Assembly (NCBI GenBank): GCA_017435045.1
Contig: JAFSFT010000043.1
Location: 36,647-100,646, forward strand
Direction of reading: 5' to 3'
DNA from: Oscillospiraceae bacterium
Lineage (GTDB): Bacteria > Bacillota > Clostridia > Oscillospirales > Ruminococcaceae
Length of the DNA stretch: 64,000 bases
Shown piece by piece: positions 35,985 through 52,108 of the stretch. Position numbers and translations under genes: made by a program. The notes beneath the pieces were generated by a model, which saw nothing but the letters and a program-made list of their open reading frames with translations, had not been told where the DNA came from and made no database searches. Numbering within the stretch: position 1 is the first letter of the stretch; every line of letters starts with the position of its first letter.

Positions 35985-36080
35985 TGATGAAAATTTTCCC
36001 TGCAAAGCGAGAAAATTTTTATTGTCACCCTTTAGATGAAGCTGCCACATACCATAAGAAGTGGCAGATATATAAATTTG
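35985..36080 (-). repeat. Dispersed structured element, copy 3 (inverted, diverged)
   Basis: On the minus strand this segment reads CATCTAAAGGGTGACAATAA followed by a hairpin with AAAATTTTC/GAAAATTTT arms and ends near CTCCCTG. The order and spacing match copy 2 at 51875-51990. The head hairpin is different in sequence (TGCCAC/GTGGCA) but in the same position. It fills most of the remB-gyrB gap; the rest of the gap shows nothing else. Confidence 0.65.
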
Positions 36081-36148
36081 TAAAATATCTTTATTAAAGA
36101 TTTTTATATAAATACAAAGTTTTTATTTAAGTAAAAGCGGAGGAAATA

Positions 36149-38074
36149 ATGGCACAGTTAGAAGATAAAGTGGAAACCAACTATGGCGGAGAACAGATAC
36201 AGGTTCTTGAAGGCCTTGAAGCTGTAAGAAAACGCCCTGGTATGTATATAGGCTCTACAGGGCCTGCGGGTCTGCACCATCTTGTTTATGAAATTGTAGA
36301 CAACTCCATAGACGAGGCACTGGCAGGCTACTGCGACAATATTCAGGTTTCTATTCTGGAAGACAATGTAATTGAAGTAAAGGACAACGGCCGCGGTATC
36401 CCTGTTGGCATTCAGCCAAAGCTGGGTATTCCTGCTGTTACAGTTGTATTTACCATTCTCCATGCAGGCGGTAAGTTTGGCGGCGAGAGCAGTGGTTACA
36501 AGGTAAGCGGCGGTTTGCACGGTGTTGGTGCTTCTGTTGTAAATGCTTTGAGTGAATGGCTTACAGTTGAAGTAAGAAACGGCGAGGGTATATATCAGCA
36601 GAGCTTTAAACGCGGTGTGGCAGACGGTGAACTTGCACGTGTTGGCGACACTGAGGAAAAGGGTACAACAGTTCGCTTTAAAGCTGACAGCGAAATGTTT
36701 GAAACCTGCGAATATGAATATGAAATTCTGCTTACACGTCTGAGAGAACAGGCATTCCTAAATGCGGGAGTAAAAATTACAATTGCAGATAAACGCAATG
36801 CTGAAGAAGAAATCGGCGAGGAACTCTGCTATGAAGGCGGTCTTAAAAGCTATGTTGAGTATCTTAACCGAAACAAGACAGCACTTCACGATGCTATCCA
36901 CATCAAGACAGCAACAGACAACTCCACAGCCGAGGTAGCTATTCAGTATAATGACAGCTACAACGAAGATATAGTAAGTTTTGCAAACAATATCCATACA
37001 CCTGACGGCGGTACCCATGAAACAGGCTTTAAGAATGCTATGACAAGGGTGTTCAACGAGTTTGGACGTGCAAAAGGCTATATAAAGGAAAAGGATGAAA
37101 ATCTTTCCGGTAATGACGTGCGTGAAGGTATAACAGCAGTTATTTCCATTAAAGTTACAGAGGCACAGTTTGAAGGACAGACAAAGGCTAAACTTGGCAA
37201 TACAGAGATTAAATCTCTTGTAGAAAAACTGGTTTATGAAAAACTGAGTGATTTTCTGGAAGAAAACCCTGCTGTTGCAAAAATAATTTATGAAAAAGCA
37301 CTGAGTGCACAGCGTGCAAGAGAAGCTGCAAGAAAAGCAAGAGAGCTTGTAAGAAGAAAATCTGCACTTGACAGTGTGCGTATGCCAGGTAAGCTTTCAG
37401 ACTGTTCCAGCAAGGACCCATCCATCTGTGAGCTTTACATTGTCGAAGGTGACTCTGCAGGCGGTTCTGCCAAAAACGGCAGAGACAGAGAGTATCAGGC
37501 AATTCTGCCTCTCTGGGGTAAGATGATAAACGTTGAAAAGGCGAGACTTGATAAAGTTTACGGCAACGAAAAACTGGTGCCTGTTGTGCAGGCATTGGGC
37601 TGTGGTATAGGCGAAGATATGGATATCAGCAAAATCAGATATCATAAAGTTGTTATCATGGCCGATGCTGACGTTGACGGTCAGCATATCAGAACCTTGC
37701 TGCTTACATTCTTTTTCCGCTTTATGCGACCTGTAATTGAAGCAGGTTATATATACATTGCTATGCCGCCGCTTTATAAGGTGACAAAGGGCAAGCAGAT
37801 AAGATATGCATATGATGACGAAGAAAGAGATGCTATTATTGCAGAGTTTGGTAACGGCTATAAAATAGGCCGATTTAAAGGTCTTGGTGAAATGAACCCT
37901 GAACAGCTTTGGGAGACAACACTTAATCCTGACAATCGTGTTATGATGCGTGTTTCCATTGAGGATGCAAGAAAAGCAGACGAAACCTTTACAATCCTTA
38001 TGGGCGACAAGGTTGAACCAAGAAAAGAATTTATCGAAAAGAATGCCAAATATGTAGACAATCTGGATGTTTAA
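36149..38074 (+). CDS. gyrB: DNA gyrase subunit B
   Basis: GyrB is the ATPase subunit of DNA gyrase, which introduces negative supercoils. The 641-residue protein has the GHKL ATPase motifs ([11 protein letters not shown] near 47-57, VKDNGRGIP near 76-84, GGLHGVGAS), the transducer domain and the TOPRIM motifs [10 protein letters not shown] and DADVDGQHI (about 430 and 510). Length is typical for a Gram-positive GyrB without the proteobacterial insertion. AGCGGAGG precedes the ATG. Confidence 0.98.
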
Positions 38075-38120
38075 TCAAGATTTAATCAGTATTGACAGAT
38101 ATCTGATTCTTTTTAAAAGA

Positions 38121-38335
38121 ATTTAACTCTTATATACGGCAAGGCTGCCGGATGGTATAGCCTGCCGTTATCTATGGTTGAGCAAGCCGACTGCTGCCGG
38201 AGGCAGATGCAGGGAGGCATACAAAGAAAAAGTTAAAGATACCAAGCCTGCACAGGGTGTGGAGATAACTTTTCAGGGCAGACAGCAGATTATTTTACAC
38301 TTAGTCGTGAAATAATGCGTCAAGAGGGGAAATTA
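38121..38335 (+). repeat. Dispersed structured element, copy 1
   Basis: The element starts with ACGGCAAGGCT (from 38136), which folds with AGCCTGCCGT (ending 38168) in a bulged 10-bp stem. It ends with ATTATTT / AAATAAT (about 38289-38316) and GCGTCAAGAGGGG. The two ends match copy 2, while the interior (38175-38285) is an unrelated insertion of about 110 bases. It lies between gyrB and the first YcxB-like gene. No reading frame is present. Confidence 0.7.
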
Positions 38336-38372
38336 TACCCTATAAAAACACAATAAGGAGATTACCTAAATT

Positions 38373-49873: not shown

Positions 49874-49984
49874 ACGAAATATAATATTTAAGTAAAATAT
49901 TACAAAAAGTTATATTGTAAATACATTTAATGTTTAACAATCGGTGAAAGGGATTGCTAAGACACAACAATAAGGAGATAAATT

Positions 49985-51850
49985 ATGATTTTAGGAAATT
50001 ATGATGTTGTAGTTGTAGGCGCAGGTCACGCAGGTATTGAAGCTGCTATGGCGTCTGCACGTCTGGGTGTTAAAACAGCACTTTTCACCCTTACTCTGGA
50101 CGGGGTTGGCAATATGCCTTGTAACCCTGCTATCGGTGGCACAGCAAAGGGGCATCTTGTTAGGGAAATTGACGCACTGGGCGGATGTATGGGTATTGCG
50201 GCTGACGCAACAAGCATTCAGACAAGAATGCTTAACCGCGGCAAAGGACCTGCAGTACACTCTCTGCGTTGCCAGAGTGACCGACAGAAGTACACAATTT
50301 ATATGAAAAAGCTGGTGGAACGTCAGGAAAATCTTGACCTTAAGCAGGCAGAAATCTGCAAGGTGCTTTTTGATGAAAATAAAAATGTTACAGGTGTTGA
50401 AACACAGCTTGGCACACAGTATGGCGCAAAGGCTGTTATTATTGCAACAGGTACATATCTGACAGGTAAAATATTTGTAGGTGATGCAAGTTACTTAAGC
50501 GGCCCTGACGGACACCACTCTGCACAGAAACTGTCTGATTGCCTTAAGGAAAACGGCATAAAGTTGGTGCGTTTTAAAACAGGTACACCTGCCCGTGTAA
50601 ACAAACGCAGTATTGATTTTTCTGTACTGGAAGTTCAGCCCGGTGATGAGGAAACCGCACCATTCAGCTTTATGACAAAAGAGCAGCCTGAAAATATTCT
50701 GCCTTGTCATATCAGTTATACAAATCTGGAAACACATAAGGTTATCAAGGATAATATCCATCGCAGTCCGTTATACGGCGGCAAGATTGAAGGTATAGGT
50801 CCAAGATACTGTCCATCCATTGAAGATAAGGTTATGCGTTTTGCAGATAAGGAACGTCATCAGCTGTTTATTGAACCTTGCGGACTGGAAACAGACGAAA
50901 TGTATATTCAGGGCATGAGTTCTTCTCTGCCTGAGGATGTACAGGTGGCATTTTACAAGACAATAAAGGGCCTTGAAAATCTGGAAATTACACGCCCTGC
51001 CTATGCAATTGAATACGACTGCTGTGACCCGCTTGACCTTAAGGCTACACTTGAATTTAAAGAATATGGCAGCCTTTATGGTGCAGGTCAGTTCAATGGT
51101 ACAAGCGGATACGAGGAAGCTGCGGCACAGGGCCTTGTGGCAGGTGTTAACGCTGCAAGAAAAATTCTTGGTCTTGGCGAATTTACATTAAGCCGACAGT
51201 CCTCATATATCGGTACGCTTATTGACGACCTTATTACAAAGGGTGTTATGGACCCTTACCGTATGATGACAAGCCGCAGTGAATATCGTCTTTATCTGCG
51301 TCAGGACAATGCTGATGAACGTCTTACACCAACAGGCAGGGAAATTGGCCTTGTAACAGACGAAAGATGGGCACTTTACAACGAAATGCTTTCCGCAAAG
51401 GAAAGGGAAATTGAACGTCTTTCTGCAATTACACTTAAACCAAGTCAGGTTAAAGATTTGCTTATAAGTAAAGGTCTTGATGAAATCACAACAGGTGTAA
51501 GAGCTAACGAGTTTCTTAAACGTCCGCAGATAAGCTACAATGAACTTGTGAAAATTGTGGGTGAGGGAGAAAACATCAACAATTTTGTAAGAGAAAAGGT
51601 TGAAGTAGAAATTAAATATGCTGGTTATATCAAACGTCAGGAACAGCAGATTAATCAGATTAAAAAGCTGGAAAATACAGTAATTCCTGATAATGTGGAT
51701 TTCAGCGAGTTTAAAGGTCTGCGTCTTGAAGCAAGAGAAAAGCTTGGTAAGGTGCGTCCTGTAAATGTAGGTCAGGCAAGCAGAATTCCCGGTGTAAGCC
51801 CAAGTGACATTTCTGCATTGCTTCTGGAATTGAAAGCAAGAGGAATTTAA
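49985..51850 (+). CDS. mnmG: tRNA uridine-5-carboxymethylaminomethyl modification enzyme MnmG
   Basis: MnmG is the FAD-dependent partner of MnmE. The 621-residue protein starts with the FAD-binding [10 protein letters not shown] motif (about 12-21). It has the [20 protein letters not shown] segment near 46-65 and an NAD-binding fold, and ends with a C-terminal helical domain for tRNA contact ([15 protein letters not shown]). AATAAGGAG precedes the start. Confidence 0.97.
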
Positions 51851-51874
51851 ATGTTTTTATGTTCTAATGTGGAA

Positions 51875-51990
51875 TTTATCCTTTAATATGGCAAGGCTGC
51901 CGAATGGCATAGCCTACCATCATCTAAGGGGGTGACAGTAAATTTTTTCATGCTTTGTCGTGAAAAAATGCGTCATGAAGGGTCCCCCTG
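51875..51990 (+). repeat. Dispersed structured element, copy 2 (with GC-rich tail to about 52055)
   Basis: ATGGCAAGGCT (from 51888) folds with AGCCTACCAT (ending 51920) around GCCGAATGGCAT. It is followed by CATCTAAGGGGGTGACAG, the hairpin ATTTTTTCA / TGAAAAAAT (about 51942-51969) and GCGTCATGAAGGG. The tail to about 52055 contains CCCCTTGT/GTGACAAGGGG-type palindromes of the kind common in Clostridial intergenic repeats. The element lies between mnmG and rsmG; no reading frame is present. Confidence 0.72.
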
Positions 51991-52108
51991 CTAGGGGAAT
52001 GTCACGAAGTGACAAGGGGTCTGCCGTCTGCGGCGAGCAAATAATCCCCCTATGAAAAAATTGCTGCAAAGGAAAATATGATAATAGCTTAATACGGGCA
52101 GTAATTTT

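Follow-up and report, generated by a model that had tools for sequence, protein, structure and literature searches.

The window examined here, a 64,000-nucleotide (nt) stretch of contig JAFSFT010000043.1 from an Oscillospiraceae bacterium, carries near the origin the genes gyrB, mnmG and rsmG, two ParB-type genes and one ParA gene, and in the gaps around them three copies of a short hairpin-rich element. Its core is about 112 nt long and consists of three hairpins whose stem sequences vary while complementarity is kept. From 5´ to 3´ it is composed of stem 1 (tetraloop G-N-A-T/A, 3´ bulge AT), TTTCATCTAAGGGGGTGACAG, the variable stem 2, CGTCATnnA, stem 3 (a GGGGG..CCCCC hairpin within a TCAT/ATGA frame) and TATGA. 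A further hairpin, denoted H below, usually follows. We consider it probable that the three copies are members of a family of non-coding, non-autonomous mobile DNA hairpin elements, which is dispersed in these gut bacteria and seems to be of a small mobile kind not described before.

Table 1. Element copies and associated features, in window positions. R1, covariance model; E, expect value.
Feature	Position	Strand	Remarks
Copy 3	35966..36072	-	core upstream of gyrB; R1 E 1.8e-19
Copy 1	38135..38345	+	core downstream of gyrB, interrupted; split R1 matches 38135-38215 and 38238-38345
Copy 1 insertion (approximate limits)	38177..38286	+	partial relatives in other genomes
Copy 2	51887..52055	+	core between mnmG and rsmG; R1 match 51887-51993, E 7.7e-27
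Copy 2 stem 1	51888..51920	+	ATGGCAAGGCT / AGCCTACCAT, loop GAAT, bulge AT
Copy 2 stem 2	51942..51969	+	ATTTTTTCATG / CGTGAAAAAAT
Copy 2 stem 3	51973..52055	+	TCAT..GGG / CCC..TATGA, opened by nested repeat (~51983-52045)
Copy 2 hairpin H	52056..52108	+	53 nt, AAAAATTGCTGC..GGCAGTAATTTT, imperfect arms
parS-like site	52109..52124	+	abuts copy 2 H; context, outside the element; ParB-type genes nearby
Perfect parS-like sites, TGTTCCACGTGGAACA	52109-52124, 53986-54001		near two ParB-type genes and one ParA gene

A sequence-only reading of the window had recognised these copies, and all three lie where it put them; R1, a covariance model built from seven copies, recovers each. The C-G to T-A exchange that it had noticed on comparing the head stems of copies 1 and 2 is real; in copy 2, one pair of that stem is also broken (C-A). 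The paired change of the second hairpin between the same copies (ATTATTT/AAATAAT to ATTTTTT/AAAAAAT) is real too, and copy 3 does carry a third version of this hairpin. The approximately 110 bases of copy 1 that had been called unrelated are present and can now be identified as an insertion, since the orthologous site of genome G001 holds an uninterrupted copy (L084:4415-4527); partial relatives of the insert were matched in five of the seven carrier genomes, the home genome included. Copy 2 had been located correctly but proves longer than supposed: its last hairpin harbours a nested repeat, and another hairpin and parS come after it. By eye, its 3´ end is at 52055, TATGA occupying 52051-52055. 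The nested repeat (GGGTCCCCC..TGTCACGAAGTGACA..GGCGAGCA) is itself dispersed; it is found at the same position in several other copies (e.g. L050, L055) and stands without a core at L003 and L005.

The covariance-model search that the same reading had proposed revealed further copies in the home genome (1.88 Mb in 70 contigs, estimated to be 85.9% complete). R1 gave 13 matches there at E<=0.01, two of them being the halves of copy 1, and further copies were recovered by blastn. The pattern GGCAAGGCTGCCGRATGG was matched twice against 0.04 expected matches, and CATCTAARGGGTGACA, with up to three mismatches, once against 0.77 expected, which is no excess.

The suggestion that selection acts on a fold is supported by covariation above shuffled and slid controls. 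In an alignment of 40 copies, which was fitted to the R1 structure and hence leans towards R1, both sides have changed in 25 of 30 pairs, doubly changed cells number 238 against 69 after shuffling, and 91.6% of cells are paired against 68.6%. The covariation score is 0.513 (0.137 shuffled, at most 0.069 slid), a value that none of 500 shuffles and none of six slid controls reached. Of the four pairs in the TCAT/ATGA frame three covary, and the fourth is broken in 17 of the 40 copies; an alternative pairing, TGAC/GTCA, is intact in 95.6% of cells and shows a double change in one pair only.

Covariation alone is no proof of RNA, and the count of G-T against A-C mismatches helps to separate RNA from DNA. 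When selection works on an RNA strand, G-U intermediates are expected to outnumber A-C. Over stems 1 to 3 the two are equally rare (G-T 24, A-C 23; 47 and 46 in an earlier count on 70 distinct rows), unlike in 46 tRNAs of the fetched loci, whose acceptor stems have 17 and 1. The compensatory pattern thus points to constraint on DNA hairpins, with RNA kept as a rival. The sequence-only reading had left the choice between RNA and a transposable hairpin; the hairpin fits better, the copies looking mobile and stem 1 having no G-U excess (G-T 6, A-C 10; stem 3, 3 and 4). It had also named what would tell against its proposal, namely a lack of further copies, stems that do not covary, or homology to a coding transposon; additional copies were found, covariation is present in the stems, and the searches made turned up no coding transposon.

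Apparent mobility of the family is suggested by near-identical copies and by one site found both empty and filled. Genus g150 has a related element, about 180 nt long, of which seven copies (four in genome G318 and three in G404, two species) are 98-100% identical over 175-200 nt and have different flanks. In the noc-parA gap of genome G000, the terminator runs straight into parS, whereas spacer, core and H lie between terminator and parS in G005, G009, G003 and G002; G001 retains, by eye, an apparent remnant of H. Genome G003 moreover contains a tandem array of units of about 186 nt beside tRNA-Pro. A second copy of H was seen on the far side at five of 20 tRNA-linked sites, this array included. 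The five tRNA loci had suggested a general target duplication, which found no support over 28 sites. The degenerate parS to the left of copy 2 was at chance level in the tRNA-site test, and in the 28-site test it ranked near the top of the decoys, one of 24 scoring as high.

Next, we examined what lies around the core. In chosen fetched loci, among which orthologous sites are included (five tRNA-Leu gag rows) so that counts are not independent, 45 of 59 right flanks have an H that begins no more than 14 nt from the core 3´ end, and 20 of 73 inspected copies have a tRNA gene no farther than 75 nt away. An H-like hairpin was seen in three of 57 left flanks and three of 55 windows farther out, which served as controls. 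In all 20 tRNA-linked copies the tRNA 3´ end faces the 3´ side of the element. The gap between them measures 51-56 nt in 15 and 30-40 nt in the remaining five, all outside the home genus; within the home genus, each of the 13 tRNA-linked copies has an H of 51-56 nt. Five near-origin copies have at 52-54 nt not a tRNA but a parS site. Terminator-like hairpins pointing at the element occur within 100 nt in 17 of 59 left flanks, as compared to 2 to 10 of 58 farther out.

H probably moves together with the core, because it is alike between some copies located at different tRNA genes: 34 of 412 such pairs score 20 or more, as compared to none of 330 pairings with eleven tRNA trailers, which were hand-picked from 41 rows and one of which (L028) adjoins an element remnant. 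That H is merely the tRNA's own terminator is unlikely for the same reason, and also because H is longer. Among trailers classified as element-bearing by pattern, 11 of 19 hairpins are 49-53 nt long, and the other 41 trailers contain 26 hairpins, 22 of them of 22-36 nt, although at least five element-bearing rows (L025, L067, L072, L106, L120) are misfiled among these, including the three 51-nt hairpins.

The distribution of the element is patchy. Within the genus, carriers make up seven of 16 genomes (E<=0.01), exactly those seven with 84-100% gyrB identity; of the 297 genomes sampled in the home family, 18 carry it (E<=1e-4, strict filters), and of 398 sampled in the phylum three do, home genome included. 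It is present in a second family. A pattern scan of named genomes returned 19 stretches, 15 of them from Oscillospiraceae metagenome-assembled genomes and Hydrogenoanaerobacterium saccharovorans An564, three from Candidatus Omnitrophota and one from Frankiaceae (L103), the last dropped as chance because no model matched it at E<=1. R1, which had been trained without any Omnitrophota sequence, matched four Omnitrophota copies with E 6.9e-6 to 1.4e-3 in 149 kb. With a second model, R2, three Candidatus Omnitrophota genomes gave five, three and one matches (E<=0.01); four of these copies had served to train it. One stretch from a viral contig carries a copy; blastn with two queries found no phage or plasmid relatives at E<=1e-5. 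In an Omnitrophota genome we also saw tRNA genes (L179, L190) and apparent tRNA 5´ fragments (L185, L194) preceded, at about 65 nt, by the element and a conserved H.

How the element moves we can only infer. A trans-acting recombinase would recognise the folded single strand or a cruciform by its loops, bulge and GGGGGTGACAG motif, without reading the sequence of the stems, and would insert the element at T-tracts beside terminators. H would then take over as terminator of the neighbouring gene, and such sites might tolerate insertion because H replaces the terminator of the neighbour. We put forward tentatively, and with less than even confidence, the fuller proposal that this is a new cross-phylum family with ends that a recombinase recognises as DNA hairpin shapes and not as sequence, and which has inserted about 53 nt (H) from tRNA 3´ ends or parS, replacing the local terminator. 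An element that brings its own terminator and inserts behind tRNA genes would, if true, explain spread without harm to the host. Few systems are known in which DNA recombinases recognise hairpin shape. A family with freely drifting stems but fixed loops, bulge and spacing would, if real, be a natural experiment on such recognition and also a search key for the recombinase.

The element might instead be a structured RNA, either a small RNA or a 5´ or 3´ leader, whose transcript ends at the H terminator. This agrees with the hairpins, the conservation of their loops and an H that lies immediately 3´ and resembles a terminator, as well as with the better folding of the forward strand, the leaning of stem 2 to G-T (both quantified below) and the position of some copies just upstream of start codons (L018, L035, L052; by eye). 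We nevertheless hold it to be unlikely: besides the equal rarity of G-T and A-C over all stems, no promoter-like conservation was seen by eye, without a scan, beyond about 10 nt upstream of stem 1, and at gathering score Rfam recognised tRNAs alone both in the window and at seven loci, where no weaker match was relevant either. Somewhat less likely still is a terminator or insulator that serves the host at the ends of genes and at parS and has spread for the most part through inheritance and gene conversion between copies. Copies do stand at transcript ends, H resembles a bidirectional terminator, and copies at orthologous sites have exchanged stems, but a family kept in this manner fits poorly with near-identical copies at different sites and with the lack of matches in nine of the 16 genus genomes and 279 of the 297 family genomes at the thresholds given above. 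Least credible of all, in our judgement, is mobilisation of a palindrome-type element by a Y1 (IS200/IS605 or RAYT, that is REP-associated tyrosine transposase) enzyme. Bulged hairpins and the lack of a clear target duplication would suit it; however, the Y1 family PF01797 is no commoner in carriers (7/23) than in non-carriers (11/25) and is absent from the home genome (86% complete) and from genome G021 (98% complete), which has nine copies, and on these grounds a Y1 mobiliser was rejected.

Several observations weigh against a mobile DNA hairpin element, the reading that we prefer. No mobilising protein was found in the carrier loci. Target duplication is not consistent (28 sites; mean 5.3 for own against 5.0 for decoy sites), and no terminal inverted repeats were recognised when the ends were read by eye. 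As RNA, the forward strand folds with lower energy than the reverse in 45 of 52 copies (mean difference 3.0 kcal/mol), and stem 2 taken alone has more G-T (15) than A-C (9). Several copies occupy orthologous sites in different species and are therefore partly inherited. As for H, it was not found in 14 of the 59 right flanks, 378 of the 412 H pairs score below 20, and at parS it differs from species to species, which a freshly moved H does not explain. Finally, the side is the opposite one for two of the five copies in Omnitrophota genome G704, which are found upstream of tRNA 5´ ends.

In the search for a mobilising protein, 1095 open reading frames from 89 loci were clustered, and none of the 14 largest shared protein clusters reaches beyond six loci, mostly orthologous or repeated ones; the widest, in six loci, is a membrane-protein-like family. 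No transposase or recombinase was recognised by eye in these 14 clusters, on which no family search was run, nor was a coding transposon bearing the element's ends seen among them. No autonomous partner with the same ends was seen in G318 or G404 or, with clusters judged by eye, beside the copies, and no insertion sequence with matching ends was seen, a library of insertion sequences not having been searched.

By its behaviour the family resembles miniature inverted-repeat transposable elements (MITEs) and the BOX and SPRITE repeats; the literature matches listed contain no description of it. The BOX, RUP and SPRITE repeats of Streptococcus pneumoniae are short, highly folded interspersed repeats judged to be parasitic, SPRITE being terminator-like (PMC3049150), and are clustered and inserted in one another (PMC10969869). 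The present element shares with them shortness, folding, dispersal and nesting. It differs in that its stems change with complementarity kept, in that it docks at a fixed distance from tRNA 3´ ends and parS, and in its presence in two phyla. Like prokaryotic MITEs (PMC10969869), it is small, non-autonomous, multi-copy, intergenic and folded; unlike them, it shows neither recognised terminal inverted repeats nor a consistent target duplication, and no partner transposase was found. Short, non-coding, multi-copy and presumably mobile, it would pass for a MITE, yet we do not file it under MITEs proper, because the target duplication test failed and terminal repeats and a partner transposase are not established.

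Two further systems invite comparison. In repetitive extragenic palindromes (REPs) with their RAYTs, and in elements derived from IS200/IS605, recognition of single-stranded bulged hairpins would give varying but paired stems; unlike these, the present element is not associated with Y1 transposase genes. Group IIC introns prefer sites just behind intrinsic terminators, a preference that the element would share, but it is only about 112 nt long, and Rfam returned no intron for the window or for the seven loci.

Upon closer examination of single loci, some minor features were noted. The outer hairpin H_R of the G318/G404 element matches itself on the opposite strand, and blastn found no match between the two ends of this element. 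At L151, the outer hairpin on the side away from ACAAG contains TTATCCACA, which resembles a DnaA box; the outer hairpin also stands alone at L160, L162 and L163. At L042, the tRNA-Thr copy, stem-1-like hairpins (GATGCCATTCGGCCACGC) form a small tandem array on the far side of the core. Finally, the mnmG-rsmG gap of G003 (L092 5600-6100) is apparently inverted with respect to G000, element, H and parS following in reverse order.

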